DNA from: Flavobacteriales bacterium
GTDB lineage: Bacteria > Bacteroidota > Bacteroidia > Flavobacteriales_F > PHOS-HE28
Direction of reading: 5' to 3'
DNA: 34,435 nucleotides
NCBI GenBank assembly: GCA_020437905.1
Contig: JAGQVN010000016.1
Coordinates: 1-34,435, forward strand
Position numbers and translations under genes: made by a program. Position 1 is the first letter of the stretch; every line of letters starts with the position of its first letter. A model generated the notes under the pieces. It was given only the letters and a program-made list of their open reading frames with translations. It searched no databases and had not been told where the DNA came from. Positions 12,852 to 34,435 of this stretch are shown piece after piece.

Positions 12852-12882
12852 TTTGACCTGACCGCTGCCTTTTCTAACTTGG
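12852..12882 (+). promoter_or_regulatory. Bacteroidota-type promoter upstream of the VCBS/ASPIC gene
   Basis: A -33 element TTTG at 12852-12855 and a -7 element TAACTTGG at 12875-12882 (one mismatch to TAnnTTTG) are separated by 19 bases, the usual spacing for this phylum. The predicted transcript starts about 18 bases before the ATG at 12906. This argues against the in-frame TTG at 12879, which lies inside the -7 element. Confidence 0.5.
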
Positions 12883-12905
12883 TGAAGTTCCAAGATCCAG
12901 ACCCC

Positions 12906-17619: not shown

Positions 17620-17659
17620 TGATCGTCTTCGTTCAATGGTGCTGATGGCGGTGCGTCCA

Positions 17660-18994: not shown

Positions 18995-19834
18995 TCAGTT
19001 GTTCCCGAATGCGGTGGTGAGCAGAACGGAGATCAACGGCACAAAGACCAGGGTCCCGTCCAACCAGAAGGAATAGTACGGCCCCTGAGCACCCGCACGG
19101 GCCTTCGCGATCAGCCACGCGACCAGCATGTAGCCGGGCAGGAAGGACCACCAAAGAAAGCCCTCGTGGGACACCGCGAACAGGATGCTGAACGAAAGGG
19201 CCAGGGCGATGAGCGCGAATAGTTTCGTGGTGCAGATCCCGAAGTAACCCGGGAAAGTCCATTTCAAGGGTTCTGTCGGGAGGTCACGGATATCGAACGG
19301 TAACGTAATGGCCATAAGGAAGAAGAAGCGCTCTGCGACCAGGAGAACACCACCGGCCGGTACGGTGGAAGTCACGAACAGGATGGGCACGAGAACTACC
19401 ATCGCCGCCCATACAGCGGCAATGAGCACAACTTTGAACAGCGGAACACTGCGCAGTCCACCCCTGCCCTGGGTCCAGGGCGTCACGTAGAGCAGTACCG
19501 CTGGCACCAGGGCCGCCAGGAGAAGGAACAGGTCCGGTTCAGCTTCCCAAAGACACCAGGACGACAGAACCGCCGAGAGCCCGGTCAAGGTCCAAAGACC
19601 CGAACGGTGACGCCTGAGCCAATCCAGGTGATCGGCACCGGATACCGCATCCATGATGCGCATGCCTCGCATGAAACCATATGCCGAGACCGTGGCCAGG
19701 GCGACGAATAGCAACGCTCGCTTGGGCACTGGTCCCAGGTCCAACACCCACCAGGTGGACCAGGCTTGCATGGCAGCACCGGAACCAAGCCAGAAGTGAC
19801 CGAACACGAACGTTCGATAAAGGCCTCTCAACAT
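18995..19834 (-). CDS. UbiA-like polytopic membrane protein
   Basis: The 279-residue protein is very hydrophobic, with about eight membrane segments, and resembles a Bacteroidota branch of the UbiA prenyltransferase superfamily. The second Asp-rich motif is recognisable as LPFDIRDLPTE (Asp181, Asp184), and the loop GGLRSVPLFKVVLIAAVWA is typical of the family. The first Asp-rich motif (NDxxDxxxD in active UbiA enzymes) is not seen; its place is taken by YGFMRGMRIMD. It may therefore not be a standard prenyltransferase. Substrate and activity are unknown. The ATG at 19834 is used; a TTG directly before it could extend it by one residue. It lies upstream of kynU on the same strand, with no evident functional tie. 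Confidence 0.7.
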   Translation of the reverse strand: MLRGLYRTFVFGHFWLGSGAAMQAWSTWWVLDLGPVPKRALLFVALATVSAYGFMRGMRIMDAVSGADHLDWLRRHRSGLWTLTGLSAVLSSWCLWEAEPDLFLLLAALVPAVLLYVTPWTQGRGGLRSVPLFKVVLIAAVWAAMVVLVPILFVTSTVPAGGVLLVAERFFFLMAITLPFDIRDLPTEPLKWTFPGYFGICTTKLFALIALALSFSILFAVSHEGFLWWSFLPGYMLVAWLIAKARAGAQGPYYSFWLDGTLVFVPLISVLLTTAFGNN

Positions 19835-19850
19835 CAAGAGGGCCTGTACA

Positions 19851-20474
19851 TCATGGGTCGGGAAGGTTCGGATTGATGATCAGCTGTCTAACCCCCAGTC
19901 CGACCAGCACACCCGCCGCCGATGAGATCAGCGATCGCACCACACGTTTGGTTCGGCCGACCCGGGCATAGCCGGTCGCATAGTACTCGTCGCCTTCCAT
20001 CAACGGATCGCGTATGGACCCTTTGGTGACATGGACCCGTGGTAACGCCATGGTCCCGGCATAGACCGGCGGGATGAGGAGCGACATCACCTCCATATCG
20101 AAACCGATGGTGAGGCCGGCGCCCAAGGCAAATCCGCCGATCATCGGGATCAGGGGCTTGTAACCATCCCTGGCGTCCTGCTCGCCCTTGATGAACCAAC
20201 GCATCTGCTCCGGCTCCAGATCGTTGCCGAAGATGGTGTCATGGAAATACCATAGCCGCTCCTTACCTGTCCTGTCCGTGACGGAGAATACGCTCTCGGT
20301 CGGCTCCGATCGTTCGACGCGCTTCTTTCCTTTATCGGTCAGATACCGGATCTCCAACGTGCTTTGTCCGATCACTTCACCTTCGATCACCTGCCCGTTC
20401 ATCATCAGGATCTTGTCCTGCGCACGAGCGGCAAGGGCCGTGAACAGGATGAGCAGCGTGTGCGTTCGACGCAT
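19851..20474 (-). CDS. Small exported protein of unknown function
   Basis: The 207-residue product has a signal peptide (MRRTHTLLILFTALAARA, Gln at +1). A beta-rich N-terminal domain follows (about 20-80: DKILMMNGQVIEGEVIG, TLEIRYLTDKGKKRVERS) of a kind often found in Bacteroidota envelope proteins, then a polar FIKGEQDARDGYK segment. Two glycine-rich hydrophobic stretches come next: IPMIGGFALGAGLTIGF and, near the C-terminus, SLISSAAGVLVGLGVRQLII. I do not recognise a characterised family. The ATG at 20474 is selected because it opens directly on the basic n-region of the signal peptide and follows a -7 box by about 36 bases. The UbiA-like gene starts 16 bases downstream of its stop, suggesting one transcript. 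Confidence 0.75.
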   Translation of the reverse strand: MRRTHTLLILFTALAARAQDKILMMNGQVIEGEVIGQSTLEIRYLTDKGKKRVERSEPTESVFSVTDRTGKERLWYFHDTIFGNDLEPEQMRWFIKGEQDARDGYKPLIPMIGGFALGAGLTIGFDMEVMSLLIPPVYAGTMALPRVHVTKGSIRDPLMEGDEYYATGYARVGRTKRVVRSLISSAAGVLVGLGVRQLIINPNLPDP

Positions 20475-20510
20475 GATGAAGTGCAGTGATAAGGCCTTGT
20501 TGCAGGCGCT

Positions 20511-20518
20511 CAAAGATA
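20511..20518 (-). promoter_or_regulatory. Bacteroidota -7 box upstream of the small exported protein
   Basis: The minus strand reads TATCTTTG, exact to TAnnTTTG, 36 bases upstream of the ATG at 20474. It probably drives the exported-protein gene and perhaps the UbiA-like, kynU and kmo genes behind it. Confidence 0.55.
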
Positions 20519-20612: not shown

Positions 20613-23486
20613 ATGGAATTCGTCACTTTTCGTGAACGCCATATCGGTCCGGATGAGCAGGCTACGGCTGTCATGTTGAAGACGATCGGTGTGACCACCC
20701 TGGACGAGTTGATCGACCGTACCGTTCCGAAAGGGATCCGGAACGGGGCCGGACTTGAACTGGAGAATGGGCTGACCGAGAGAGAGCTGATCGAGCACAT
20801 GGGCGTGGTCGGAGCACAGAACCAGGTCTACCGTTCGTACATCGGACTGGGATACCACGGAACAGTGGTCCCTTCGGTGATCCAGCGGAATGTGCTGGAG
20901 AACCCGGGTTGGTACACAGCCTATACCCCCTATCAGGCGGAGATCAGCCAAGGAAGATTGGAGGCCTTGCTGAATTTTCAAACCATGGCCGCCGACCTCA
21001 CCGGACTGCCCATTTCGAACGCAAGCCTCCTGGATGAGGCGACAGCATTGGCGGAAGCCATGCACATGCTTTTTGCCGCTCGCCCGAAGGAGAAAGCTGA
21101 TGCGAAGCGCTTCTTCGTGGATCGAGGTCTGTTCCCTCAGAACCTCGATGTGCTGAAGACCCGAAGCGCTCCCATGGGCATCGAACTGGTGGAGGGGGAT
21201 GCCTTGTCCTTCCAGCCGGATGGGTCCTATTTCGGCATCGCGCTGCAGTATCCCTCCATGGATGGCACGGTCGGGGACCTGAAGTCGGTGACCGCTCGAT
21301 GCAAGGCGAACGGCATCAGCGTGGCCGTGGCCTGTGACCTCCTTGCATTGGTCCTCCTGTCACCTCCGGGCGAATGGGGTGCGGATGTCTGCGTCGGCAA
21401 CAGCCAGCGGTTCGGTGTGCCCATGGGTTACGGAGGTCCGCATGCGGCCTTCTTCACGACCACCGAAGAGTTCAAGCGGGTCATCCCGGGACGCATCATC
21501 GGGGTCAGTCAGGACCGACGGGGTAGGCCTGCATTGCGCATGGCCCTGCAGACGCGTGAGCAGCACATTCGCAGGGACAAGGCCACGAGCAACATCTGCA
21601 CCGCCCAGGCCTTGCTCGCTGTGATGGCCGGCATGTATGCCGTCTACCACGGACCGAACGGTCTGCGAAGGATCGCCCGGCGGATCAGCGAGGCAACCGC
21701 CAGGCTGGCCGCTGCTGTTGCAGGGATCGGATACGAAGTAGTGAACCCCAGCTTTTTTGATACCATCACTCTGAAGCTGCCCGAAGGCATTGGACCCGAG
21801 AACGTGGTGAACGCCTGTGCCTCGCGAAGGATCAATCTGCGGCCGGTGAACGAGAAGCATGTGGCCGTGAGCCTGGATGAAACGGTCCGCGAGGATGACA
21901 TCACGGACATCCTGACCAGTCTGGCAGAGGCCTGTGGAAGGCCGGCTCCAGGGATCGGCCCGGCCGCGGAAACCTCCGGTATCCCTCGACAGCTGGAGCG
22001 GACCTCGCCTTTCCTGACCCATCCGGTGTTCAACACGCATCATTCCGAGACCGGTTTGATGCGCTACCTGAAACGCTTGGAGAACCGGGATTTCTCATTG
22101 ACCCACGGCATGATCCCGCTCGGTTCCTGCACCATGAAGTTGAACGCTGCTTCCACACTGCTGCCATTGACATGGGCCGAGTGGGCCAACCTGCACCCCT
22201 TCGCACCCGTGGAGCAGGCTGCAGGGTATCACCAGGTCTTCTCTGAACTGTCGAATGCCCTTGCCAAGGTGACCGGGTTCACAGGAGTGAGCCTTCAGCC
22301 CAACAGCGGAGCCCAGGGAGAATATGCAGGTCTCATGGTGATCCGCGCCTACCATGAGGCAACGAATGGGTCGGCCCGTAACATCGCGCTGATCCCCAGC
22401 AGTGCGCACGGCACCAATCCCGCAAGTGCGGTCATGGCCGGGATGAAGGTCGTGGTGGTGAAATGCGATGAAGAAGGGAATGTGGACATCGCCGATCTGC
22501 GCGCCAAAGCAGAGCAGCACCGTGACTCCCTGAGCTGTCTGATGGTCACCTATCCAAGCACCCACGGGGTGTATGAGTCGGGGATCAAGGAGATCACGAG
22601 CGTGGTGCATGAGTACGGAGGGCTTGTCTACATGGATGGGGCCAACATGAATGCACAGGTCGGCCTGACCAGCCCGGGTGAGATCGGAGCGGACGTATGC
22701 CACCTGAACCTGCACAAGACCTTCGCCATTCCGCATGGAGGTGGGGGGCCCGGAATGGGCCCGATATGCGTGAACGATAAACTGGAACCGTTCCTACCCG
22801 GGCATCCCCTGGTCCGTACAGGCGGTGAGCAGGCGATCGGTGCGATCAGCGCGGCTCCCTGGGGAAGTGCATTGATCCTCCTGATCAGTCATGCGTACAT
22901 CAAGATGCTGGGCGCCGACGGACTGACCAGTTCCACGCGCATGGCCATCTTGAACGCGAATTACATCAAGTCCCGCCTTGAGCCACATTACCCGGTGCTG
23001 TACACCGGTGCCACTGGTACCGTAGCCCATGAAATGATCCTGGACTGCCGTGGCTTCAAGCGCACGGCGGGCATCGAGGTGGAGGATATCGCCAAGCGCC
23101 TCATGGACTATGGATTCCACGCGCCGACCGTAAGCTTCCCGGTTGCAGGAACGCTCATGGTGGAGCCGACCGAGAGCGAGGACCTGAACGAGCTCGATCG
23201 ATTCTGTGAGGCCATGATCGGGATTCGGCAGGAGATCGCGGATATCGAGAACGGACGGCTCGACAAGCTGGACAACCCCCTGAAGATGGCCCCCCACACG
23301 GTCGTGGAAACCTGCGCCGAAGTCTGGTCCCATCCCTACTCCAGGGAGTTGGCAAGCTTTCCGACCCGCCACCAACAGGAGTGGAAGTATTGGCCCCATG
23401 TCAGCAGGGTCGATAGTGCCTATGGAGATCGCAACCTGGTCTGCACCTGCCCCCCAGTGGAGGAATACATGGAGGCGACCGTGTGA
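20613..23486 (+). CDS. gcvP: Glycine dehydrogenase (decarboxylating), glycine cleavage P-protein
   Basis: The P-protein decarboxylates glycine on PLP and passes the aminomethyl group to the lipoyl arm of the H-protein. The 957-residue product is full length for the fused homodimeric form. The N-terminal half begins FRERHIGPDEQ and contains YTPYQAEISQGRLEALLNFQ. The C-terminal half carries the PLP lysine Lys702 in LNLHKTFAIPHGGGGPGMGP and the GSCTMKLNA motif. The end, VCTCPPVEEY, is also typical. The ATG at 20613 coincides with the normal start of the family (MEFVTFRERHIG). gcvT and gcvH are not adjacent, as is common in Bacteroidota. The gene is divergent from the small exported protein and stands alone. 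Confidence 0.97.
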   Translation: MEFVTFRERHIGPDEQATAVMLKTIGVTTLDELIDRTVPKGIRNGAGLELENGLTERELIEHMGVVGAQNQVYRSYIGLGYHGTVVPSVIQRNVLENPGWYTAYTPYQAEISQGRLEALLNFQTMAADLTGLPISNASLLDEATALAEAMHMLFAARPKEKADAKRFFVDRGLFPQNLDVLKTRSAPMGIELVEGDALSFQPDGSYFGIALQYPSMDGTVGDLKSVTARCKANGISVAVACDLLALVLLSPPGEWGADVCVGNSQRFGVPMGYGGPHAAFFTTTEEFKRVIPGRIIGVSQDRRGRPALRMALQTREQHIRRDKATSNICTAQALLAVMAGMYAVYHGPNGLRRIARRISEATARLAAAVAGIGYEVVNPSFFDTITLKLPEGIGPENVVNACASRRINLRPVNEKHVAVSLDETVREDDITDILTSLAEACGRPAPGIGPAAETSGIPRQLERTSPFLTHPVFNTHHSETGLMRYLKRLENRDFSLTHGMIPLGSCTMKLNAASTLLPLTWAEWANLHPFAPVEQAAGYHQVFSELSNALAKVTGFTGVSLQPNSGAQGEYAGLMVIRAYHEATNGSARNIALIPSSAHGTNPASAVMAGMKVVVVKCDEEGNVDIADLRAKAEQHRDSLSCLMVTYPSTHGVYESGIKEITSVVHEYGGLVYMDGANMNAQVGLTSPGEIGADVCHLNLHKTFAIPHGGGGPGMGPICVNDKLEPFLPGHPLVRTGGEQAIGAISAAPWGSALILLISHAYIKMLGADGLTSSTRMAILNANYIKSRLEPHYPVLYTGATGTVAHEMILDCRGFKRTAGIEVEDIAKRLMDYGFHAPTVSFPVAGTLMVEPTESEDLNELDRFCEAMIGIRQEIADIENGRLDKLDNPLKMAPHTVVETCAEVWSHPYSRELASFPTRHQQEWKYWPHVSRVDSAYGDRNLVCTCPPVEEYMEATV

Positions 23487-23703: not shown

Positions 23704-25554
23704 ATGTTCAAGTACACCGCCTTCACCTTGTTGGCTTGCCCCTTGTTCCTTCATGCGCAACCGCAGATCGCTCATCTTGCACAGCACCCCGGTAAGCACA
23801 CCTTCCAACCCGCCTCAGCGCTGGGCCCATCCGGTGAGCAAGCCATGGACCTTGCGCTGCGTTCGGCAGCAGCCACTGTCTGGAGCGAGGACTTTGAAAG
23901 CGGCTGGAACGGCTGGAGCGTGAACACGGTCAATGGCCCCGTGGACTGGCAACTGACAAGCACTGGGAACACCGGCGGCTTCACGCCAGGCCCACTGCAG
24001 TCCACGACCGGCTACCCTACGGGCACGTGGGCGGTCGCCGATTCCGATCTGCACGGTGTTCCGGGAGTGCAGGAAGACACCGAGCTGCGCTCTCCACCCA
24101 TCCTCGGTCTGGATACCCTGCCCTATCTCCTGCTTCGTTTCGAACAATGCTTCAGGCAATTGAACGGCGATGATACGGACGTGGAGGTCAGTGGGGATGG
24201 AGGTCAATCGTGGACCATTTTCCCCGTGAACCGGAGCATTCCGGGCAACCAGAGCACGGCCGGTGCTCCACAGTCCGAGACCGTTCTGCTGAACATAAGC
24301 AGTGCGCTCAACGGCGGAGCCTCTGACATCCGGATCCGTTTTCGGTGGAGGAGCATTCAAGGCTATGCCTACAGCTGGCAGGTGGATGATATCGCCCTGG
24401 TGGTCCCTGCGGACAATGATCTGCGCATCCTTTCAGCGACCTACGCAGAACGCGATCCCAACGATCCTCATTTCAAGGACCTGCCCTACTCCATTTACCC
24501 GATCAACGAAGTGCGTCCATTGACCATGAAGGTGGTTGTAATGAACAACGGAAGCCAGGACCAACATGATATCGGTCTTACCGTGGACATCGATGGGCCG
24601 GGTCCCAATGATGTGACCCTGAACAGTCCGGTGAACATCACCTCGCTCGCACCCGGCGCGATGGATAGCCTGATCATCAATGGATATGTACCCATTGCCG
24701 TGGAAGGGCCATATGCGCTGCAGTTCAGTGTTGGGCAGGTCGAATCGGAGGATGAACCGGATGACAACATCAGGTCCCTCGGCTTCGCGATCGATGAATT
24801 CATTTTCGCCCGTGATCGTGATTCCATGGATGGGGACTACGACAATGAAGGGGACCCGTACGAACTCGGGAACTGGTTCCATATCACGGACTACGACAAC
24901 GTATTGTACGGCATTGATGTGGCCCTGAGCTCACGCACGGACCCTGGAGCGGTGATCCGAGCCACCTTGTATGATGAGACCCGTACGTACGTCATGGAGA
25001 CCGTGGAACACACCGTGTCCGCAGCCGACCTGAATACGCTGGGACAATCCAAGTTCCTTCACTTGCCGTTGTTGACACCGGTTCCGCTCGATGACGACAC
25101 GGACTACCTTGTGACCGTCAGTCATTTTGGAGGGCCATTGGAGGTGTACACGGCGACGAGCGGCACCAGTGAACCGCAGTCCTCGCTCATCCTGGACGGA
25201 AGCAATTCCACCTGGTACTATGTGACCTCCACTCCCATGGTGCGCATGAACTTCGATGCGACCGTTGGGATGAACGAACAGGTGAAGGGCCTCGGACAGC
25301 TCATTGCCGCACCTTCGGTGTTCGATGAAAGCACGCTTATCACCATCGATCTGCCACAAGCCCAGGAGCTGAGCTGGAGCCTGACCGACATGCATGGCCG
25401 GGAGATCGCCCATGGCAGGCTCGGATACCGTTCCGAAGGGCGGCTACAGGTCCGGTTGGATGGTGCGGATATCGCCGACGGTGTTTACCTATTCACCGCG
25501 CACGGGACGATGGGCCGCTCGAGCCTGAGGATCGTAAAGGCCGGCAACAACTGA
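23704..25554 (+). CDS. Array gene 1: secreted beta-sandwich protein with divergent T9SS-type C-terminus
   Basis: The 616-residue product has a signal peptide (MFKYTAFTLLACPLFLHA, Gln at +1). An N-terminal jelly-roll/MAM-like domain follows (about 58-235) that opens VWSEDFESGWNGWSVNT and contains LRFEQCFRQ, VEVSGDGGQSW and a closing WQVDDIALVV. A CARDB-like module (about 240-360: LTMKVVVMNNGSQDQHDIGL) and a further beta domain come next. The last ~85 residues look like a T9SS type A sorting domain (SWSLTDMHGREIA...ADGVYLFTAHG...SLRIV), but the usual PNP motif is replaced by APSVFDES and five residues follow the final strand. The N-terminal domain is class II (no paired cysteines), like array genes 5 and 6. 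No clear promoter or terminator is seen. The function is unknown; the protein is probably secreted or surface-attached. Confidence 0.85.
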   Translation: MFKYTAFTLLACPLFLHAQPQIAHLAQHPGKHTFQPASALGPSGEQAMDLALRSAAATVWSEDFESGWNGWSVNTVNGPVDWQLTSTGNTGGFTPGPLQSTTGYPTGTWAVADSDLHGVPGVQEDTELRSPPILGLDTLPYLLLRFEQCFRQLNGDDTDVEVSGDGGQSWTIFPVNRSIPGNQSTAGAPQSETVLLNISSALNGGASDIRIRFRWRSIQGYAYSWQVDDIALVVPADNDLRILSATYAERDPNDPHFKDLPYSIYPINEVRPLTMKVVVMNNGSQDQHDIGLTVDIDGPGPNDVTLNSPVNITSLAPGAMDSLIINGYVPIAVEGPYALQFSVGQVESEDEPDDNIRSLGFAIDEFIFARDRDSMDGDYDNEGDPYELGNWFHITDYDNVLYGIDVALSSRTDPGAVIRATLYDETRTYVMETVEHTVSAADLNTLGQSKFLHLPLLTPVPLDDDTDYLVTVSHFGGPLEVYTATSGTSEPQSSLILDGSNSTWYYVTSTPMVRMNFDATVGMNEQVKGLGQLIAAPSVFDESTLITIDLPQAQELSWSLTDMHGREIAHGRLGYRSEGRLQVRLDGADIADGVYLFTAHGTMGRSSLRIVKAGNN

Positions 25555-25613
25555 TGCCACGGAGGTGACGCCCGGAACGCTGACCAAGCTTACAGGGGCC
25601 TGGGACCGGCACC

Positions 25614-25621
25614 TATCTTTG
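25614..25621 (+). promoter_or_regulatory. Bacteroidota -7 box upstream of array gene 2
   Basis: TATCTTTG, exact to the -7 consensus TAnnTTTG, ends 7 bases before the ATG at 25629. As with tatC, transcription would begin at or just before the start codon, giving a leaderless or near-leaderless message. Confidence 0.6.
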
Positions 25622-25628
25622 CGCGCTC

Positions 25629-27416
25629 ATGCGAACGAGGTGTCCATTCGGGATCTTGCTCCTGGCCTTGACCATATTGGCTTCGGCAGAAAAGCTCCGG
25701 GGACAGGACGACCGAAGTGTCTGCATATTCTCGGAAGACTTCAATGGACCGGGCATCCCCTCCGGCTGGGACATCGGGGTTCCGGTGGAACAGCTGGATG
25801 CGAACGGTAATGGCACCGGCAACTTCGTACCCCCATGGCGGATCGGTGATGCCGGTGAAGCGAATGCGAACGGATACTTCCCTGCACCTGGAACGGGCTT
25901 CGGGGACCTGTTCATCATGGCCAATGATGACGCGCCTCCATGCGACTGCGATCTGACCGAGATCTACCTGACCTCTCCGTCCTTGGACCTGGTCGGCAGC
26001 ACCGGCACCTTGCTGGAATTCCAGCTCTTTTTCGATGGCGCTTTCGGTGCGGACAGCGCCTGGCTCGATGGTTCCCCGGACGGATCGACCTGGACGAGGT
26101 TAAGGGAGCTTCCAGCTGACCCGAGCGCCTGGAGCACGGTCTACACGGACCTTTCCGCCTTGGATGGGAATGTCGGAGCTCGCTTTCGCATCGGATGGAC
26201 CGACAAGGGCAACTGGGTCGGAGGGATCGCCATCGATGATCTCTGCATCCGTTCCCGCAGCGCAAGGGACCTGGTCCTGGATGAAGGGTTCCTGGCCGAC
26301 GTTGGGAGGGACCCTTTCGATCAGACCGTTCGGAGCCTGGAATACACGGAGATCCCGGGAACCCAGTACGGGACCTTGGAAGTGGGTGGTGCTGTGCGCA
26401 ATCTGGGGACCCTTGCCCTGTTCCAAGTGTGGTTGGAGGCTGAGGTATTCCAGAATGGGGTCTCGCAGGGCATGTTCTTCAGCGATACTTTGGCCTTGCT
26501 TAGCGCCCTTGGAAGCGACACACTAGAGATCGAAACGGGATGGAGCGCTCCTTCCTCGGGTATCGTTACCGTTGACTATCGAGCACGGCACACCGGCACC
26601 GAGGATGCTCCGGGTGACGAGACCGCATCGCGAACGCATCGGGTGACGGGGCCCGGTGGACCATCAGAAGGGAATTCTGCGATGTCCCTTTATTCCGGCA
26701 CGACCGGCCCTTTGATCACTGGACCTGCCTCCGGGTTCTGGTCGGGCGTTCGATTGGAACCTGTTTCGGACGGCACCTTGCATCACGTCTCCTTTCAACT
26801 CGGACAAGGGACGCAGGAAGGAGCGACCGTGGTGGGGCTTCTTTTGAACAGCAGCCTGGATGTTATCGATAGTACGCAGGTGCTGGAACTTGATGCACAG
26901 GCGATCGATGCCGGGCTATGGGGGGACCGGACCTACCTGAACTTCGACCCACCTGTTCCGTTCCAGGCAGGTCAGGACCTGATCCTGGCTGTCGCTCAGG
27001 CGGCGGACAGTGGAGCTTTGGTTTTGACCAGTGCCGGAACCGGTCCGATCGGGCACGCGTTGTTCCGGGAGGCGGGCAATGGTCCATGGGAGTTCCCGTT
27101 ACACACCCCAGCGATCGCTGGCCATTTGGACCAGGTTCCGCTCAGCATGGAGGAGGGCTCCACGGAAGGCATTCGGCTCGGGCTTTTTCCGAACCCTGCC
27201 GCCGAGTGGGTCCTTATTAGTTCCCCAGATGAACTGCGGAACTTGGAATTCTATGATGGTCAGGGTCGTTTGGTCGAACGTGTTTCGTGGCCGGTAGGAA
27301 GCCGGTCACGAGGCGTGATCCATCTTTCAGTTTCTGACTGGCCCTCAGGTGTGTATACCCTTCGTGCGTGGAATGACGCAGGGGAAAGCTATGGTCAGCG
27401 ACTGATCATCGAGTAG
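25629..27416 (+). CDS. Array gene 2: T9SS type A cargo, cysteine-bearing class I
   Basis: The 595-residue product has a signal peptide that probably ends at KLRG with Gln at +1 (cleavage at ASA is also possible). The N-terminal domain (about 31-210) starts CIFSEDFNGPGIPSGWD. It has the class I block VEQLDANGNGTGNFVPPW, then NDDAPPCDCDL...TSPSLDL, and closes with IDDLCI. A CARDB-like module follows (EVFQNGVSQGMFFSDTLALL), then a third beta domain. The C-terminus is a classical type A sorting domain: LGLFPNPAAEW, LEFYDGQGRLV, PSGVYTLRAWN, QRLIIE. The middle region is more diverged than in genes 3-5. The function is unknown. Confidence 0.88.
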   Translation: MRTRCPFGILLLALTILASAEKLRGQDDRSVCIFSEDFNGPGIPSGWDIGVPVEQLDANGNGTGNFVPPWRIGDAGEANANGYFPAPGTGFGDLFIMANDDAPPCDCDLTEIYLTSPSLDLVGSTGTLLEFQLFFDGAFGADSAWLDGSPDGSTWTRLRELPADPSAWSTVYTDLSALDGNVGARFRIGWTDKGNWVGGIAIDDLCIRSRSARDLVLDEGFLADVGRDPFDQTVRSLEYTEIPGTQYGTLEVGGAVRNLGTLALFQVWLEAEVFQNGVSQGMFFSDTLALLSALGSDTLEIETGWSAPSSGIVTVDYRARHTGTEDAPGDETASRTHRVTGPGGPSEGNSAMSLYSGTTGPLITGPASGFWSGVRLEPVSDGTLHHVSFQLGQGTQEGATVVGLLLNSSLDVIDSTQVLELDAQAIDAGLWGDRTYLNFDPPVPFQAGQDLILAVAQAADSGALVLTSAGTGPIGHALFREAGNGPWEFPLHTPAIAGHLDQVPLSMEEGSTEGIRLGLFPNPAAEWVLISSPDELRNLEFYDGQGRLVERVSWPVGSRSRGVIHLSVSDWPSGVYTLRAWNDAGESYGQRLIIE

Positions 27417-27496
27417 CTGAAGTTCGCCCTCGCGACAAGGACCTGGCGTGCTGGTCGTCATGCCGCGCTGCAGAGCGTAGGTTAGTGCCGGATCGT

Positions 27497-27504
27497 TAAC
27501 TTTG
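27497..27504 (+). promoter_or_regulatory. Bacteroidota -7 box upstream of array gene 3
   Basis: TAACTTTG, exact to TAnnTTTG, ends 34 bases before the ATG at 27539. The leader it predicts is A-rich and has no Shine-Dalgarno sequence, as usual in this phylum. The aligned position in the leader of array gene 4 reads TAACGGGT. Confidence 0.55.
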
Positions 27505-27538
27505 TGATCAACCGTTAAATCAGACCAATCCTAAGACC

Positions 27539-29446
27539 ATGAAGAAAATCTACTTGTCCATGGGCCTGCTGGTGGTCGCCTCCGGATCCTACGCGCAAAG
27601 CCGCGTGATCTCTGGCACCGCTTTGCATCCGGTCCATGTGGACCTGACCGAGCCGAGTGTGCAACACCGTAGCGGTGGTACCTGTGTATTCTCCGAGGAT
27701 TTCCAAGGTGGCGTAATGCCAGCCGGTTGGACCATGAGCGCCGATGTCGAGCAGTTGGATGGTAATGGTAACCCGCTGGGGACCTTTGTCCCGCCATGGC
27801 AGGTCGGTGATTCCGCCCTGTGCAACAACGGCGGCTTCTTCAACGTGCCTGCAGGCATGGACCTTTTCGCCTTCTGCAATGACGATGGTCCTCCCTGTGA
27901 TTGCAGCATGAGCATGGTATGGCTCAGCACACCGTCCATCGACCTGAGCGGTTTCGCAGGTCTCGGACTTCAGTTCGAGTGCCTGAATGACGGCCTGTAC
28001 GCCACCACGGCCGCGGGCGTTGAGGCCAGCACGGACGGCGGCGCCACCTGGACCTCGATCTACACGATCGCAGAGGCTGGTGATGCGAACGACGCGGTAT
28101 TGCAGAATATCACCGTGCCACTAGGCACCTTGGCCGGTCAACCGGACGTGCGTCTGCGCTGGACCTGGGATGACGGAGGAGGCTGGGGTACCGGTCTTGC
28201 CATTGACAATGTCTGCATTGTTGAATTGGATCCTTATGACCTGGCATTGAACAAGCCTTTCCTCAGCGACGCCTCAGCCTTTTATGAGGACTACACGCTT
28301 GTCAATCAGGAGTACACGCACATGGCCTTGGAACAGGCCTATCCGATGATCGTAGGTGCCGAGGTCATCAACAACGGTGGGTCCGACCAGACCAACATCG
28401 TGGTGACCGCCGAGATCTTCGAAGGTGGCGTCAGTCAGGGGACCTTTACCAGCGCGCCCTATGCGCTGCTGGCGCCTGGTGCGCTCGACAGCATCTTCGT
28501 GACCACGAACTGGACCCCGACGATGACCGGAACAGTGACAGTGGAACTGAGCGTGGATGGTGATAATGCTGACATCGATCCCTCTGACAACACCGGCAGT
28601 GGCACGTTCACCGTTACAGGACCCTCCCAGGCTGATGGCTACAGCAACATGGGTCTTGACGACAATGCCTTGCAAGGTTTCTTTGAGATCAGTCAGGGCT
28701 CCACCTACAGCGGCATGGGTACGCGTACGGAGATCCAGAATGCCGGAAGCATGGCCTATGGCATCGGTGTTGCATTCGCAACCGGCACCACGGCCGGTGC
28801 TGCCGTACAAGTAACGCTCCTTCAGGACAACGCCAATGGTTTGGAGACCATGGCCGTTTCCGACCTCTTCGAGATCCAAGGCTGGCACATTGGCGGCACG
28901 GGCAACGACAACATCGTGTTCATTCCGTTCGACGCCATCCTGAGCGATCCGAACCCGGTGCCCGTGATGCTTGACCCGGCCAATGACTATATCTCCGTTG
29001 TGGAGAATCCGGGTACTGAGGTGGTCCGCATCGGTTCAAGCGGGAACCTGAACCCGGGTGGCCTGTTCTCTGTGGACCCGGCCGATGGAAGCCTGACCCA
29101 ATACATCGGGACGGGCAACCCTGCGGTGATGACGCGCCTGTTCCTGGCCGATGCACCGGTGGGTATCACCGACCTGACCAGCAATGGCCTGAGCCTGGGA
29201 CCGAACATGCCGAACCCCTTCACCGGTCTCACCACCATTCCTTACACCTTGCAGGAGGCAAGCGAAGTGACCTTCGAGGTGATCGATATGGCGGGTAAGT
29301 CGGTCATGATCAAGCAGCTGGGCAACCGTCCTGCAGGAAGCCACTTGATCGACCTGGATGGTGCCCCGCTGGCACCAGGGGCCTACCAATACGTGCTCAC
29401 CGCCGGCCAGGACCGCCTGGCCCGCCGGATGATCGTGACGCGCTAA
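27539..29446 (+). CDS. Array gene 3: T9SS type A cargo, twin of gene 4
   Basis: The 635-residue product has a signal peptide (MKKIYLSMGLLVVASGSYA, Gln at +1). The class I N-terminal domain (about 47-230) starts CVFSEDFQGGVMPAGW. It contains VEQLDGNGNPLGTFVPPW, NDDGPPCDCSM and STDGGATW, and closes with IDNVCIVE. A CARDB-like module follows (about 270-360: EIFEGGVSQGTFTSAPYALL...WTPTMTGTVTVELSV), then a third module with IFIPFDAILSDPNPVPV-type sequence near residue 460 (here beginning NIVFIPFD). The type A sorting domain (LGPNMPNPFTGLTTIPYTL...GAYQYVLTAGQDRLARRMIVTR) closes the protein. It is the same length as gene 4 and similar along its whole length. A strong terminator follows 18 bases after the stop. 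The function is unknown. Confidence 0.9.
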   Translation: MKKIYLSMGLLVVASGSYAQSRVISGTALHPVHVDLTEPSVQHRSGGTCVFSEDFQGGVMPAGWTMSADVEQLDGNGNPLGTFVPPWQVGDSALCNNGGFFNVPAGMDLFAFCNDDGPPCDCSMSMVWLSTPSIDLSGFAGLGLQFECLNDGLYATTAAGVEASTDGGATWTSIYTIAEAGDANDAVLQNITVPLGTLAGQPDVRLRWTWDDGGGWGTGLAIDNVCIVELDPYDLALNKPFLSDASAFYEDYTLVNQEYTHMALEQAYPMIVGAEVINNGGSDQTNIVVTAEIFEGGVSQGTFTSAPYALLAPGALDSIFVTTNWTPTMTGTVTVELSVDGDNADIDPSDNTGSGTFTVTGPSQADGYSNMGLDDNALQGFFEISQGSTYSGMGTRTEIQNAGSMAYGIGVAFATGTTAGAAVQVTLLQDNANGLETMAVSDLFEIQGWHIGGTGNDNIVFIPFDAILSDPNPVPVMLDPANDYISVVENPGTEVVRIGSSGNLNPGGLFSVDPADGSLTQYIGTGNPAVMTRLFLADAPVGITDLTSNGLSLGPNMPNPFTGLTTIPYTLQEASEVTFEVIDMAGKSVMIKQLGNRPAGSHLIDLDGAPLAPGAYQYVLTAGQDRLARRMIVTR

Positions 29447-29464
29447 GCGATAGCCGACCATTTG

Positions 29465-29500
29465 AAAAGACCCTCCGGGACACCGGGGGGTCTTTTTTTT
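29465..29500 (+). terminator. Rho-independent terminator after array gene 3
   Basis: A 14-bp stem (left arm 29465-29478, right arm 29483-29496, one T-G wobble) encloses the loop GACA and runs into a T tract ending at 29500. The inner stem, AAGACCCTCCGG with CCGGGGGGTCTT, is identical to that of the terminator after gene 4. Confidence 0.9.
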
Positions 29501-29681
29501 GTACCCTTCTTGAGATCCTTGCCCGACAACGCTTCATCACGCAATTCACCGTTCGCTGATCACGCCCGGAACGGTCCCGACGGGGGAATAATTTCACCGC
29601 GCACCCCTGGCCCAACGTTTCTTGATGAACGGTGGGCCGTTAACGGGTCGATCAAGGACGGAACGAAAAACTCTGAACAAC

Positions 29682-31589
29682 ATGAAGCAATTGTACCTGA
29701 CCCTGGGCCTGGTAATGGCCTCCACGTCCATGCTGGCGCAGTCGCGCGCCATCTCGAGCGCCCTGCGACACGCACCGCCCATTGACCTTGCCGGGCCCCG
29801 TGTGGAGCACCGCGGCGGCGGAACATGCGTATTCTCCGAGGACTTCGAAGGCGGCGTCCTACCCGCAGGCTGGAGCATCAGTGCCGATGTGGAGCAATTG
29901 GATGACATGGGCAACCCCTTGGGAACCTTCGTCCCGCCTTGGCAGGTAGGCGATTCAGCGGCCACCCAGACCGGCGACTTTTTCTTTGTTCCCGCAGGCA
30001 TGAGCACATTCGCCTATGCGAATGACGACGGCCCTCCCTGCGATTGCAGCATGAACATGGTCTGGATCTCCACGCCTTCCTTCGACCTGAGCGGCGTGAC
30101 CGGGGTCGGCCTTCAGTTCGAATGCTTGAACGATGGTCTCTATTGCACCACCGAAGCAGGTGTGGATGCGAGCACTGATGGTGGTTTGACCTGGACCAAC
30201 ATTTATACCATCCCTGAGGCTGGTGACCCGAACGATCCGGTGCTGCAGAGCATCACCGTTCCGCTTGCCGCCTACGCCGGCCAACCGGACGTTCGTTTGC
30301 GCTGGACATGGGACGATGGCGGCTGCTGGGGGACCGGCCTGGCGATCGATAACATCTGTATCGCGGAACTGGCCCCGGCGAATCTGACGTTGACGGAGTC
30401 CTTCCTATCGGATGCAGGTGCCTTCTACGATGACTATTCAGCAACCAGCCAGGAATACACACACCTCGCCTTCGAGCAGGCCTACCCCATGATCGTAGGG
30501 GCCGACGTAACCAATAATGGCGGTGCGGACCAGACCAACGTGATCGTGACCGCTGAGATCTTCGAAGGAGGTGTGAGCCAAGGGACCTTCAGCAGCATGC
30601 CTTATCCGCTGCTCGCAGCAGGCACACACGATTCGATCTATGTGATGACGAACTGGACACCGACCATGACCGGAGAGGTATCGGTCGAACTCAGTGTGGC
30701 TGCGGACGATCCTGATTCCGACCCTTCCGACAACAGCGGAAGCAAGAGCATGACAATAACCGGGCCTGCCGCCGCGGACGGATACAGCAATATGGGCCTC
30801 GACGCCAATTCATTGACGGGATACTATGTCATGAACCAAGGAGGAACGGACCCCGGCTTCGGTATCCGATCGGAGATCCAGAACACGGGAAGCGTGGCCT
30901 ACGGGATCGGACTGGCCTTCGCGACCGGAACAGTGGCTGGAGCCGGCGTACAGGCAACCCTGCTGCAACTGAATGACGATGGCCTCGAGACCATGGCCGT
31001 TTCAGACCTGTTCGAGATCGAAGGCTGGCACATCGGTGGAACGGGAAGCAACAACATCGTGTTCATTCCATTCGACCCGATCCTGAGCGACCCCAACCCA
31101 ACACCGGTCACACTTGACCCGGCCAACGACTACATCTCCGTGGTCGAGAACCCGGGTACCGAAGAGGTCCGGATCGGCGTCAGCGGAACCCTCAACCCGG
31201 GCGGGCTTTGGAGCGTGGATCCAGCCGATGGCAGCCTCATCTTCTACACAGCCCCGGATAACCCTGCCGTGATGATCCGCCTGTTCCTGGCCGACGCCCC
31301 GGTTGGCATCGCCGACCTGACCAGCAATGGCCTCAGCTTGGGACCGAACATGCCGAACCCGTTCACTGGGCTTACGACCATTCCATACACCTTGCAGGAG
31401 GCGCGGGAGGTGACTTTCGAGGTGATCGACATGGCCGGCAAGACCGTGATGGTCAAGCAGCTGGGGAACCGTCCCGCCGGCAGCCATCTGATCGACATGG
31501 ACGGTGCACCCTTGGCTCCAGGCGCATATCAGTATGCGCTCACCGCAGGTCAGGACCGCCTGGCGCGTCGCATGATCGTGACCCGCTGA
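29682..31589 (+). CDS. Array gene 4: T9SS type A cargo, twin of gene 3
   Basis: The 635-residue product has a signal peptide (MKQLYLTLGLVMASTSMLA, Gln at +1) and the same three modules and C-terminal sorting domain as gene 3. The class I cysteines are kept (CVFSEDF, PPCDC, IDNICI), with two extra ones (LYCTT and GGCWGTG). The ATG at 29682 is chosen because it starts the signal peptide and aligns with the start of gene 3; an in-frame upstream ATG at 29622 would add 20 polar residues. In the last 90 codons I count 5 amino-acid changes against 37 synonymous codon changes relative to gene 3. That indicates an old duplication under strong purifying selection. The leader aligns with that of gene 3, but the -7 box is not conserved. 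The function is unknown. Confidence 0.9.
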   Translation: MKQLYLTLGLVMASTSMLAQSRAISSALRHAPPIDLAGPRVEHRGGGTCVFSEDFEGGVLPAGWSISADVEQLDDMGNPLGTFVPPWQVGDSAATQTGDFFFVPAGMSTFAYANDDGPPCDCSMNMVWISTPSFDLSGVTGVGLQFECLNDGLYCTTEAGVDASTDGGLTWTNIYTIPEAGDPNDPVLQSITVPLAAYAGQPDVRLRWTWDDGGCWGTGLAIDNICIAELAPANLTLTESFLSDAGAFYDDYSATSQEYTHLAFEQAYPMIVGADVTNNGGADQTNVIVTAEIFEGGVSQGTFSSMPYPLLAAGTHDSIYVMTNWTPTMTGEVSVELSVAADDPDSDPSDNSGSKSMTITGPAAADGYSNMGLDANSLTGYYVMNQGGTDPGFGIRSEIQNTGSVAYGIGLAFATGTVAGAGVQATLLQLNDDGLETMAVSDLFEIEGWHIGGTGSNNIVFIPFDPILSDPNPTPVTLDPANDYISVVENPGTEEVRIGVSGTLNPGGLWSVDPADGSLIFYTAPDNPAVMIRLFLADAPVGIADLTSNGLSLGPNMPNPFTGLTTIPYTLQEAREVTFEVIDMAGKTVMVKQLGNRPAGSHLIDMDGAPLAPGAYQYALTAGQDRLARRMIVTR

Positions 31590-31610
31590 TCCAAAACGAA
31601 CCAACGGCTG

Positions 31611-31646
31611 AAGACCCTCCGGAACCCCGGGGGGTCTTTGGTTTTT
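31611..31646 (+). terminator. Rho-independent terminator after array gene 4
   Basis: A 12-bp stem (31611-31622 with 31627-31638, one T-G wobble) and loop AACC are followed by TGG and five T. The stem arms are identical to the inner 12 bp of the gene 3 terminator, while the loops differ. Confidence 0.85.
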
Positions 31647-31770
31647 CCGGCACCATGCTCTGCTTGGAAGCTCAACGTTCCATCCCGGATGTTGCCATTC
31701 AGGAATATATCGGCGCAGCGAAGTCTCTTTCACCTAAATTCACGGTCCATTCCCAAAGAGACCATAGACC

Positions 31771-33681
31771 ATGGAACGAAAACTACTTGCACTTTCCGCT
31801 TGCGTATTCCTGATCGCGGGCACTGCGACGGCCCAGTCCCCTGGCGTCGCTCCATTGCCTGATATGCCCGAGGCTCGGGTGGATAGTGAACCCGTCACAC
31901 CCTCGGCCGATTATCGTGCCGGGAACATCATCTGGTCCGAGGACTTCGGTGGAGGAGTCCCTGCTGGTTGGACCCTTCACGACACCTCGGGTCTCTGTCC
32001 CTGGAAATGGTCCCTGAACGGATCGGCCGGTTTCTTCGCTGGTGCAGGCGACCCGATCGCAAGCACCACCGGTACGAACGGTTTTTTGATAAGCGACCCG
32101 GACTCTGCCAACAACACGAATTTCGGCCAGCCCAGTGGCACCACTTATCAGTACCTGGATTCCTGGTTCACCACCTCGGCGATCGACCTGACGGGCCACC
32201 CTGCCGTAAAGCTGGAATTTGAACAGTATTTCCGATACAATAATTCTCCCGACTTCATTGTCCAGGTAAGCAATGATGGTACAACATGGACCAATTGGAC
32301 CGTTCAAGGCTCCACCGTGGCCAATACAGCCAGTGCGAACCCCGTGACCGTCGAATTGAATATTTCCTCCGTTGCTGGTGACGAGCCGACGGTGTACCTG
32401 CGTTTCGGTTGGAACGCCCGCGTGTACTTCTGGATGATCGATGACATCCGGATCGTGCCCCTCCCGCTGAATGATCTTTCGCTCGTCGAGGCGTACATGT
32501 CGCGCACGGACGTGATCTATGATGACTTCACTCAGCGTTCGTTGGAGTATTCCCTGTTGCCTTTGGAGCAGGCCACCGATGTGATCCTCGGGGCCAGCGT
32601 GAGGAACAGCGGTTCCAACATCATGTACAATGTGATCATCGATGCGGAGATCTCGCAGGACGGTGTGAGCCAGGGCACCTTCAGTAGCACGCCGCTCGCG
32701 CAGCTGGGCATTGATGTGCTGGATTCGGTCTATTTCAGTACCGGATGGGCGCCGACCACCCCTGGTCGCATCACGATCGACTACTTCGTGCGCTCGGATT
32801 CGGCGGATATCGACAGCACCGACAACTTCGGCATGCGCAACTTCCGTGTGACAAGTGCAGGCGAGGCGGATGGTTGGAATGTCATGGGTCATGACCTCGT
32901 GGCTTCCAGTGGCACGTTCTACAACATCAGTACAAGTCTGGACCTGAAGAGCATCGGGAACAAATACGAGATCGAGAACACCGGAAGCATCTGCTACGGA
33001 GTGAGCGTGGGTCTCCTGGACGGCACGGACGTGGGCGCTGCGATCACTGTGGAATTGTTCCGCGAGGATGACCTTGGGTTGGAACTGGTCGCCACCAGTG
33101 ACCTGTACGAGGTACAGGCCTCGGATCTGAACGCCACTGGTGACAGCACCATGATCTTCATTCCCTTTGACCCGATCCTGAGCGATCCGAACCCTGTGCC
33201 GGTGGATATGGACCCGAACTACGACTATATCGCCTTCGTAACGAACACCGGCACTGAAACGGTGCGCGTTGTGACGAGCGGCCCGATCCGTCGCGGGGGC
33301 CTGTGGGGCATCCAATCCGCAGACGATGGCCTGATCCAGTACATCGGCAACGGGAACCGGGCCACGCACGTACGTCCCTATCTGGACCAGGCTGCTTCCG
33401 TCCAGATCGTGAGCAACGCCGGTTTGACCTTGTTGGCGAACTACCCGAACCCGGTGAACACCTTGACGACCATTCCCTTCACGCTGGAGGAAAGCGATCG
33501 TCTTGACCTGATGGTCATGGATGCCTCCGGAAGGATCGTTTTCCAGCAGCACCTGGGCAGCCGCAATGCAGGGACACACACCATCAACTTCGATGCGAGC
33601 GCTCTGGCCTCAGGCATGTACACCTACACGCTGAGCGGGGAAAAGAGCCGCCTGAGCCGGACCATGTCCGTGGTACGCTGA
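31771..33681 (+). CDS. Array gene 5: T9SS type A cargo with mosaic domain makeup
   Basis: The 636-residue product has a signal peptide (MERKLLALSACVFLIAGTATA, Gln at +1). Its N-terminal domain (about 50-230) is class II: IWSEDFGGGVPAGW, LEFEQYFRYNN, VQVSNDGTTW, closing MIDDIRIVP, with none of the class I cysteines. From about residue 235 on it resembles genes 3 and 4: LEYSLLPLEQ, EISQDGVSQGTFSSTPLAQL, IFIPFDPILSDPNPVPV, DDGLIQYIGNGN. The type A sorting domain follows (YPNPVNTLTTIPFTL, GMYTYTLSGEKSRLSRTMSVVR). It is probably a recombinant of the two classes. A weak -7-like TAAATTCA lies at 31735-31742. A terminator follows. The function is unknown. Confidence 0.9.
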   Translation: MERKLLALSACVFLIAGTATAQSPGVAPLPDMPEARVDSEPVTPSADYRAGNIIWSEDFGGGVPAGWTLHDTSGLCPWKWSLNGSAGFFAGAGDPIASTTGTNGFLISDPDSANNTNFGQPSGTTYQYLDSWFTTSAIDLTGHPAVKLEFEQYFRYNNSPDFIVQVSNDGTTWTNWTVQGSTVANTASANPVTVELNISSVAGDEPTVYLRFGWNARVYFWMIDDIRIVPLPLNDLSLVEAYMSRTDVIYDDFTQRSLEYSLLPLEQATDVILGASVRNSGSNIMYNVIIDAEISQDGVSQGTFSSTPLAQLGIDVLDSVYFSTGWAPTTPGRITIDYFVRSDSADIDSTDNFGMRNFRVTSAGEADGWNVMGHDLVASSGTFYNISTSLDLKSIGNKYEIENTGSICYGVSVGLLDGTDVGAAITVELFREDDLGLELVATSDLYEVQASDLNATGDSTMIFIPFDPILSDPNPVPVDMDPNYDYIAFVTNTGTETVRVVTSGPIRRGGLWGIQSADDGLIQYIGNGNRATHVRPYLDQAASVQIVSNAGLTLLANYPNPVNTLTTIPFTLEESDRLDLMVMDASGRIVFQQHLGSRNAGTHTINFDASALASGMYTYTLSGEKSRLSRTMSVVR

Positions 33682-33699
33682 TCGAACCCTCCAACCGCG

Positions 33700-33731
33700 A
33701 TGCCCCGGTCCCGATCAAAGGACCGGGGCAT
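33700..33731 (+). terminator. Rho-independent terminator after array gene 5
   Basis: A perfect 12-bp stem (33700-33711 with 33720-33731), rich in G+C, with the 8-base loop CGATCAAA, is followed by TGTGTTTG. The T tract is imperfect. Its sequence is unrelated to the two terminators after genes 3 and 4. Confidence 0.75.
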
Positions 33732-33793
33732 TGTGTTTGACGGCGCGGTATTTTCGCTTACTGACACTATCTTGCCTCAAACCCCTTGTTGAC

Positions 33794-34435
33794 ATGAGAA
33801 CATTGTACGCACTGGGCGTTGCCTTGCTGGCGGCACCCACATATGGGCAGCTGATGCGACCCGCATTCGAAGCGCATCCGGAAGGCAAACACCACGGTGG
33901 CTATGCGGTCCCCGGCCACCAGCTTGGATCGGCCAAAGGCACGACCTATTTCAGCGAGCCCTTCGATGCCGGCCTGAACGGCTGGACCGTGAATACTCCT
34001 TCCGGGGTGGATTGGGCCTGGACCGATGTAGGACCTGGACCAACGACGTCCACTTATCCGGTCCCACCGCTCAATTCGAGCAGCCCCTCCGGATGGGTGA
34101 TCGTGGATGACGATTTCCTGGGACAGGGGCTCACCACAGAGACCTCACTGATCTCTCCGGTGATCGACCTGAGCATGGCGCCTCAATTCCTGAAACTGGA
34201 GTTCGAACAGTATTTCCAGGAATGGCAGGAGGACCACTGTTACGTGGGAGTTAGCACCGATGGAGGCGTGACCTGGGATGAGACCGAGATCGGGGAAGGA
34301 GTTGGTCGCGACGGAAGACCCAACCCGGAATTGGTCGACCTGGACATCTCAAGCTGGGTGGCCAACGATCCAGCCAACGTTCAACTCCGTTTTCGATATA
34401 CGTCCATCTGGGACTATGGATGGCAGATCGACAAC
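33794..34435 (+). CDS. Array gene 6: secreted beta-sandwich protein, class II (3' end outside window)
   Basis: The first 214 residues are visible. A signal peptide (MRTLYALGVALLAAPTYG, Gln at +1) is followed by a class II N-terminal domain: YFSEPFDAGLNGWTVNTPSG, then LISPVIDLSMAP, LEFEQYFQEW, VGVSTDGGVTWDE, LRFRYTSIWDYGWQIDN at the edge. The pattern matches gene 1 most closely (NGWxVNT at the start, WQ(V/I)D near the domain end) and then gene 5. A T9SS sorting domain is expected further on but cannot be seen. Candidate -7 boxes are imperfect (TATTTTCG at 33749-33756). The reading frame is open to the last base of the window. Confidence 0.85.
   Translation, partial: MRTLYALGVALLAAPTYGQLMRPAFEAHPEGKHHGGYAVPGHQLGSAKGTTYFSEPFDAGLNGWTVNTPSGVDWAWTDVGPGPTTSTYPVPPLNSSSPSGWVIVDDDFLGQGLTTETSLISPVIDLSMAPQFLKLEFEQYFQEWQEDHCYVGVSTDGGVTWDETEIGEGVGRDGRPNPELVDLDISSWVANDPANVQLRFRYTSIWDYGWQIDN

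Follow-up and report, generated by a model that had tools for sequence, protein, structure and literature searches.

A tandem array of six paralogous genes

The window, a 34,435-nucleotide contig (JAGQVN010000016.1, assembly GCA_020437905.1) of a Flavobacteriales bacterium placed by GTDB in family PHOS-HE28, ends in an array of six genes, g1 to g6 (23704-34435), whose products resemble cargo of the type IX secretion system (T9SS). The genes follow one another on the + strand downstream of gcvP, with none intervening, up to the contig end (Table 1). In an all-against-all BLASTP comparison of g1 to g5, nearly all pairs are linked across most of their length (E 1e-9 to 0); g3 and g4 are 76% identical and the remaining pairs 21-41%. 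The g6 fragment matches g1 and g5 (E <1e-10). The six genes are paralogs of one family, and gene calls and BLASTP confirm an earlier reading of this DNA (the original prediction), which had claimed six consecutive same-strand paralogs with no other gene interspersed. Although the open reading frame of g4 opens at a TTG at 29622, translation more likely starts at the ATG at 29682. Antisense frames across the array, such as 31783-33579 (-, 598 aa, over g5), were judged probable shadow frames of G+C-rich coding sequence.

The contig is exactly 34435 bases long and stops within g6, so the array does run off the window, as had been predicted. C336 (L008), another contig from this genome, opens with the remainder of a family member (C336:2-1159), followed by convergent mlaF/mlaE. 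On the family profile the window contig (C92) stops at position 222 and C336 resumes at position 228. The two halves agree in orthology group, the head being 55-71% identical to group C and the tail falling in group C at 99. Because C336 holds the matching tail together with mlaF/mlaE, and both halves belong to the same group, the array most likely comprises six members and is complete. A profile search of the genome's contigs found no further full-length family member; the other matches cover C-terminal parts of the profile only.

The G+C content of the window is 57-60%, and family PHOS-HE28 has been described with 59-65% G+C, genomes of 3.2-4.5 Mb and an origin in wastewater and activated sludge (PMC7214798). 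Relatives of the protein family belong, by name, to Flavobacteriales or Bacteroidota metagenome bins, several of which carry activated-sludge names.

Table 1. Positions of the array genes, their modules, the left anchor and the expression signals
Feature	Position	Strand	Remarks
g1	23704..25554	+	616 aa; orthology group B; putative signal peptide, then head, CARDB-like module and module 3; T9SS C-terminal domain degenerate
g2	25629..27416	+	595 aa; head type N1, tail type T5
g3	27539..29446	+	635 aa; structure model pLDDT 89
g3 head (N-module)	27683..28231	+	residues 49-231; MAM / gingipain cleaved-adhesin-like jelly roll
g3 CARDB-like Ig module	28235..28615	+	residues 233-359; below cut-off in g3
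g3 module 3	28622..29152	+	residues 362-538; second jelly roll, lectin-like
g3 T9SS type A C-terminal sorting domain	29174..29437	+	TIGR04183 32.1 bits, cut-off 23
g4	29682..31589	+	635 aa; lineage-specific g3 duplicate
g5	31771..33681	+	636 aa mosaic; tail in g3/g4 clade, head from another lineage
g5 head	31927..32457	+	about residues 53-229; 68% identical to G018 p4 head
g6	33794..34435	+	N-terminal 214 residues only (putative signal peptide plus head); contig end interrupts gene; orthology group C
gcvP (glycine dehydrogenase)	20613..23486	+	left anchor of slot; TIGR00461 1396.7 bits
Conserved divergent gcvP neighbour	19851..20513	-	kept beside gcvP in relatives
Terminator hairpin after g3	29463..29502	+	-26.8 kcal/mol, z -5.8
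Terminator hairpin after g4	31606..31650	+	-28.5 kcal/mol, z -4.1
Terminator hairpin after g5	33696..33742	+	-32.8 kcal/mol, z -7.3
TATCTTTG, Bacteroidota -7-like box before g2, tentative	25614..25621	+	
TAACTTTG, Bacteroidota -7-like box before g3, tentative	27497..27504	+	

Module folds and sorting domains

The proteins share a common plan of a putative signal peptide, a head resembling MAM and cleaved-adhesin domains, a CARDB-like immunoglobulin-like (Ig) module, a second jelly roll (module 3) and a T9SS sorting domain. All six N-termini, as read from the sequence, have a basic-hydrophobic stretch closing in an A/G-Q type site. Folds were taken from a model of g3 built on a 72-sequence alignment (mean predicted local distance difference test score, pLDDT, 89), with module 3 modelled separately (pLDDT 91); absence of any family from the structure match lists was not counted as evidence.

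The g3 head matches meprin MAM (Z 14.9, root-mean-square deviation (rmsd) 2.9, 153 aligned), reelin (Z 14.2) and the gingipain domains K1 (4itc, Z 13.3), K3 (3m1h, Z 13.1) and K2 (3km5, Z 12.8), the last three over 149-154 residues. At the sequence level the family profile finds reelin (E 3e-7, hmmsearch) and gingipain K1 (E 0.0036). The match to cleaved adhesins is non-specific, because the fold is also common to MAM and Eph ligand-binding domains. Among the window proteins, NF038128 (choice-of-anchor J) stays below its cut-off of 30 bits (18-19 bits, best 19.1), PF07675 (Cleaved adhesin) is not listed at E<=1, and no PF00629 (MAM) match was found. The N-terminal folds of the copies are related, as the original prediction of one family needs. 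CARDB (PF07705) is also below cut-off in the window proteins (best 16.6 bits, cut-off 22.7), and 7 of the 41 family members match it at E<=0.01 (best 6.6e-5).

Module 3 is nearest in structure to the Cwp84 lectin-like domain (Z 14.6, rmsd 2.9, 146 aligned) and to phage fibre or baseplate domains (Z about 13). It also matches the carbohydrate-binding modules CBM22/32/35 (Z 6-7), and the head structure search likewise hit carbohydrate-binding modules (2xom, 8jiy). Such matches would suit polymer capture for feeding, in which heads and module 3 bind carbohydrate or protein and hold substrates for other secreted enzymes. This is quite unlikely, since the matches are of a common-fold kind, no window copy has a catalytic domain and the slot contains no enzyme gene. 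Each protein has one head; domain searches and the g3 model found neither a caspase-like protease domain nor repeated adhesin domains in the window copies.

The T9SS C-terminal domain had been predicted in all five complete copies, and this stands for g2 to g5; in g1 the domain is weak and passes no cut-off. PF18962 is above its curated cut-off in g2 (28.1 bits, cut-off 27) and g5, and TIGR04183 in g3, g4 and g5. The g6 tail on C336 also carries a sorting domain above the curated cut-off (27.5 bits, cut-off 27), and PF18962 reaches E<=0.01 in 36 of the 41 family members. The same genome encodes the secretion components PorU (1217 bits, above cut-off) and SprA (above cut-off, as two contig-edge pieces), and has 133 PF18962 matches in total. 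T9SS cargo genes are themselves common in this group; the unexpected features of the array are its conserved slot and the mosaicism of its heads and tails.

A fixed slot between gcvP and mlaF-mlaE

The family was found in 43 of 45 genomes of the genus. The gene order in the fetched genus genomes is the homolog of the 19851 gene, gcvP, the array, and then mlaF and mlaE on the opposite strand facing it, and this arrangement is kept in almost every genus genome checked, with 0 to 6 copies in the slot. Four genomes (G004, G013, G019, G022) have none, so that gcvP directly faces mlaF; the others have 1-5, and the present genome has 6. In the sister genomes, too, the genes are paralogs and stand together, in the same slot across the genus. 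A second tandem locus lies elsewhere in G013, G017, G019, G040 and G044.

Beyond the genus, the region around gcvP was compared in one genome per family for about 50 families of the class. Among the 48 families with enough sequence, 23 have on the gcvP strand a gene that encodes a T9SS-type C-terminal domain (CTD) and starts between -200 and +500 bases from the gcvP stop; this count ignores kinship, and given the shared ancestry of families a binomial figure drawn from it is not a true probability. Background density predicts such a gene after gcvP at about 1% per locus, and the upstream neighbour of gcvP, taken as a control, has a T9SS-type CTD at 1 of 57 loci. The CTD model used for the count was trained partly on slot members, but the linkage itself is independent of both the model and the binomial figure. 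In about ten of the 23 CTD-positive families mlaF/mlaE also face the slot. A non-exhaustive literature search for gcvP-T9SS synteny found no report of it; its one match was unrelated to synteny. Set against its relatives, the locus is seen to have kept the same housekeeping neighbours over a very long period.

Across the class the slot holds three-module proteins like those of the window, shorter proteins (290-460 aa) and others that reach 1430 aa. In an independent check of 25 of the shorter occupants, all matched PF18962 and TIGR04183 at E<=0.01, and five of them matched choice-of-anchor J (NF038128; best E 2.7e-31). Some shorter occupants, for example that of L177 (G036), have other beta domains ahead of the sorting domain, as if the slot takes different cargo heads.

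Orthology groups and selection

In a tree of 99 family members, the copies fall into position-specific groups. Group B, to which g1 belongs, is always first after gcvP, relatives of g2 are first or second, and group C, with g6, is always last, beside mlaF. Close species pairs give a ratio of nonsynonymous to synonymous divergence (dN/dS) of 0.04-0.19 for the head, compared with 0.10-0.32 for the remainder of the protein. The members therefore stand in old, ordered orthology groups under purifying selection, which is strongest on the heads. The g3/g4 pair has dN 0.165 and dS 1.52 (dN/dS 0.11 overall); recent gene conversion between the two was rejected, since synonymous divergence is high throughout. 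An in-frame TAG interrupts the members at 1493-3415 of L106 (G021) and 8667-9797 of L089 (G054), which may be decaying copies or sequencing errors.

Tandem surface proteins had been taken to indicate selection for variety. In its strong form this idea makes the locus an antigen-type array in which phages, predators or grazers drive rapid diversification through positive selection. Copy number does vary from 0 to 6 between species and heads are exchanged (see below), as such an array would require. The strong form is nevertheless highly doubtful: the dN/dS of orthologs is 0.04-0.32 with the head most constrained, g3 and g4 give a similarly low value, and ortholog order is kept across species. 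Purifying dN/dS and fixed ortholog order mean that selection for variety fails at the site level, and site-level diversifying selection was rejected for the close species pairs. Variety arises instead by the exchange of whole heads between tails.

Heads and tails with different histories

The clearest mosaic is the second locus of G013 (L096, 5941-12097), with three tandem copies. Module 3 is 83-90% and the sorting domain 91-94% identical among them, and the heads are 24-33% identical, with the transition, at the DNA level, falling within the CARDB region. The three tails form a clade at 99.5, and a common head clade is rejected by the approximately unbiased (AU) test (p-AU 1.8e-6, a value that, like the other AU values here, is optimistic). 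Two of the heads group with heads of other species at 99 and the third with a G017/G019 head group, also at 99. The pattern at this locus looks like concerted evolution, with heads kept distinct and shared between species and tails homogenised within the genome.

The array in the window shows the same discordance. The tails of g3, g4, g5 and the G005 copy m1 form one clade at 99, and a common head clade of g3, g4 and g5 is rejected (p-AU 5.2e-7). The g5 head forms a clade with that of the G018 copy p4 at 99.8; the other modules of p4 are 23-28% identical to g5, and a matching tail pairing is rejected (p-AU 0.0032). G005 m1 in turn has a group C head (in a 10-row clade at 100 that includes G015 p3) on a g5-like tail, and its membership in the group C tail is rejected (p-AU 1.75e-4). 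The eight head types require 16 changes on the tail tree, against a minimum of 7, and head/tail discordance recurs in several genomes. Heads and tails have different histories.

Rate heterogeneity was considered as the sole cause of the discordance; it could fit alike heads with a diverged rest, but neither the G013 copies nor the conflicting clades rejected by the AU test. This bears on the proposal that the locus is a neutral relic, an old insertion that persists with no functional tie to gcvP or mlaFE and whose discordant trees reflect rate differences and gene conversion noise. In its favour, T9SS cargo has no obvious biochemical tie to glycine cleavage or phospholipid transport, the locus is missing from many families of the class, and the slot is empty in some genus members. 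A relic is still unlikely, as the proteins are under strong purifying selection and rate differences cannot yield heads of 24-33% identity with tails of 83-94% in one genome.

The copies might also be structural parts of a matrix or surface layer (S-layer), the heads contacting other copies so that head variety would reflect matrix interactions rather than foreign ligands. Jelly-roll and Ig modules do occur in matrix and S-layer-associated proteins (the Cwp84 lectin-like domain, reelin), and several ancient types are maintained together in one genome. The shuffling of heads on tails fits binding variety at least equally, and a purely structural role seems doubtful, though it retains some chance.

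Expression signals and neighbouring genes

The hairpins behind g3, g4 and g5, predicted earlier as terminators, proved real, and a T-rich stretch follows each; no comparable hairpin was found behind g1 or g2. Promoter boxes had been claimed before g2 and g3, and matches to TANNTTTG do lie at 25614 and 27497. They are the only + strand matches in the array, where about 0.06 would be expected by chance in the ~940 intergenic bases. The boxes remain tentative because the one before g2 leaves a leader of nearly zero length and neither is accompanied by a TTTG -33 element; no Bacteroidota-type pattern with that element was found. A scan for sigma-70 promoters gave sites no more frequent than in shuffles and was set aside. 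Separate expression, which had been proposed for the copies in general, is plausible for some of them. No recognised promoter or hairpin precedes g1, so read-through from gcvP into g1 is possible.

The divergent gene beside gcvP and the next one, 18995-19837 (-), have no Pfam match; homologs of the two lie upstream of gcvP in many families of the class, often beside kynureninase. Here kynurenine monooxygenase-like and kynureninase genes (16276-18949, -) lie beside gcvP, and other families of the class likewise have kynU in the neighbourhood of gcvP. Further upstream are a probably secreted 1129 aa FG-GAP / UnbV_ASPIC repeat protein with 9 FG-GAP_3 stretches (12879-16268, +), a 288 aa protein without any family match (11899-12765, -) and a 1090 aa PD40/TolB-like beta-propeller protein (7862-11134, -).

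Relation to known systems

The gingipains and HagA of Porphyromonas gingivalis (PF07675; 4itc, 3km5, 3m1h) are the nearest precedent, being exported by the T9SS and having the same head fold (Z 12.8-13.3). A single gingipain chain, however, combines a protease with several adhesin repeats, whereas the array has one head per gene, no protease and short tandem genes in a fixed slot, and its heads fall below the PF07675 and NF038128 cut-offs. In P. gingivalis, domain rearrangement and allelic exchange vary the cleaved adhesin domains, and the fourth adhesin domain of Kgp occurs in three variants (PMC5266723). Choice-of-anchor J proteins (NF038128) have the domain position and plan seen here, but the window proteins score 18-19 bits against the cut-off of 30. 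MAM domains (meprin, receptor tyrosine phosphatases) and reelin repeats are alike in head fold, but belong to animal proteins with other partners.

Flavobacterium psychrophilum has T9SS cargo genes for leucine-rich-repeat proteins with near-consecutive locus tags, THC0290_0171 to _0186 (PMC5682007). Like the array, these are several TIGR04183 surface proteins of the same type with neighbouring tags, but they are built of leucine-rich repeats rather than jelly rolls, and the likeness is drawn from locus tags.

A proposed rack of displayed binding proteins

The array is probably an old rack of T9SS-exported, surface-displayed binding proteins that has been diversified by duplication and head-tail recombination in a fixed slot between gcvP and mlaF-mlaE. 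The T9SS would export each protein to the cell surface by way of its C-terminal sorting domain, displaying the head, with the CARDB-like Ig module as a spacer. Tandem duplication and loss would change the rack (0-6 copies per genome), and homologous recombination among paralogs would place heads from one lineage on tails from a different one. The fold and conservation of the heads suggest that they bind ligands. Because the head types are old and under purifying selection, each may keep a specific binding job, with a glycan or a protein in floc or biofilm material as the probable ligand, and the proteins may act in adhesion or in a matrix. The view of the original prediction that these are paralogous T9SS-exported surface proteins is supported, and its interpretation overall is partly supported.

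Several points weigh against this rack of binding proteins. The C-terminus of g1 aligns with the other copies yet passes neither PF18962 nor TIGR04183, and jelly-roll folds are common to binding domains, structural domains and enzyme accessories alike. The AU p-values are optimistic because the discordant groups were chosen after the identities had been seen. The trees were built by a 'quick' method and include some long branches, and the genus genomes looked at are largely metagenome-assembled, in which tandem repeats can be misassembled.

A broader proposal extends the rack to a display locus anciently linked to gcvP throughout class Bacteroidia, in which heads and tails are joined combinatorially, heads stay distinct, tails are homogenised and the gcvP/mlaFE link is functional. 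It is put forward tentatively and, taken as a whole, appears rather improbable. The neighbourhood of gcvP followed by T9SS cargo, often with mlaFE, in about half of the sampled families nevertheless raises the question of a functional link.

T9SS cargo proteins are numerous and mostly without an assigned function, and a fixed address with ordered orthologs and exchangeable heads provides a tractable handle on them. The same cargo can be traced across many uncultured floc-forming bacteria, and the binding of each old head type can be asked. Adhesin-domain exchange of the kind described for the oral P. gingivalis would here be found in environmental Bacteroidota.

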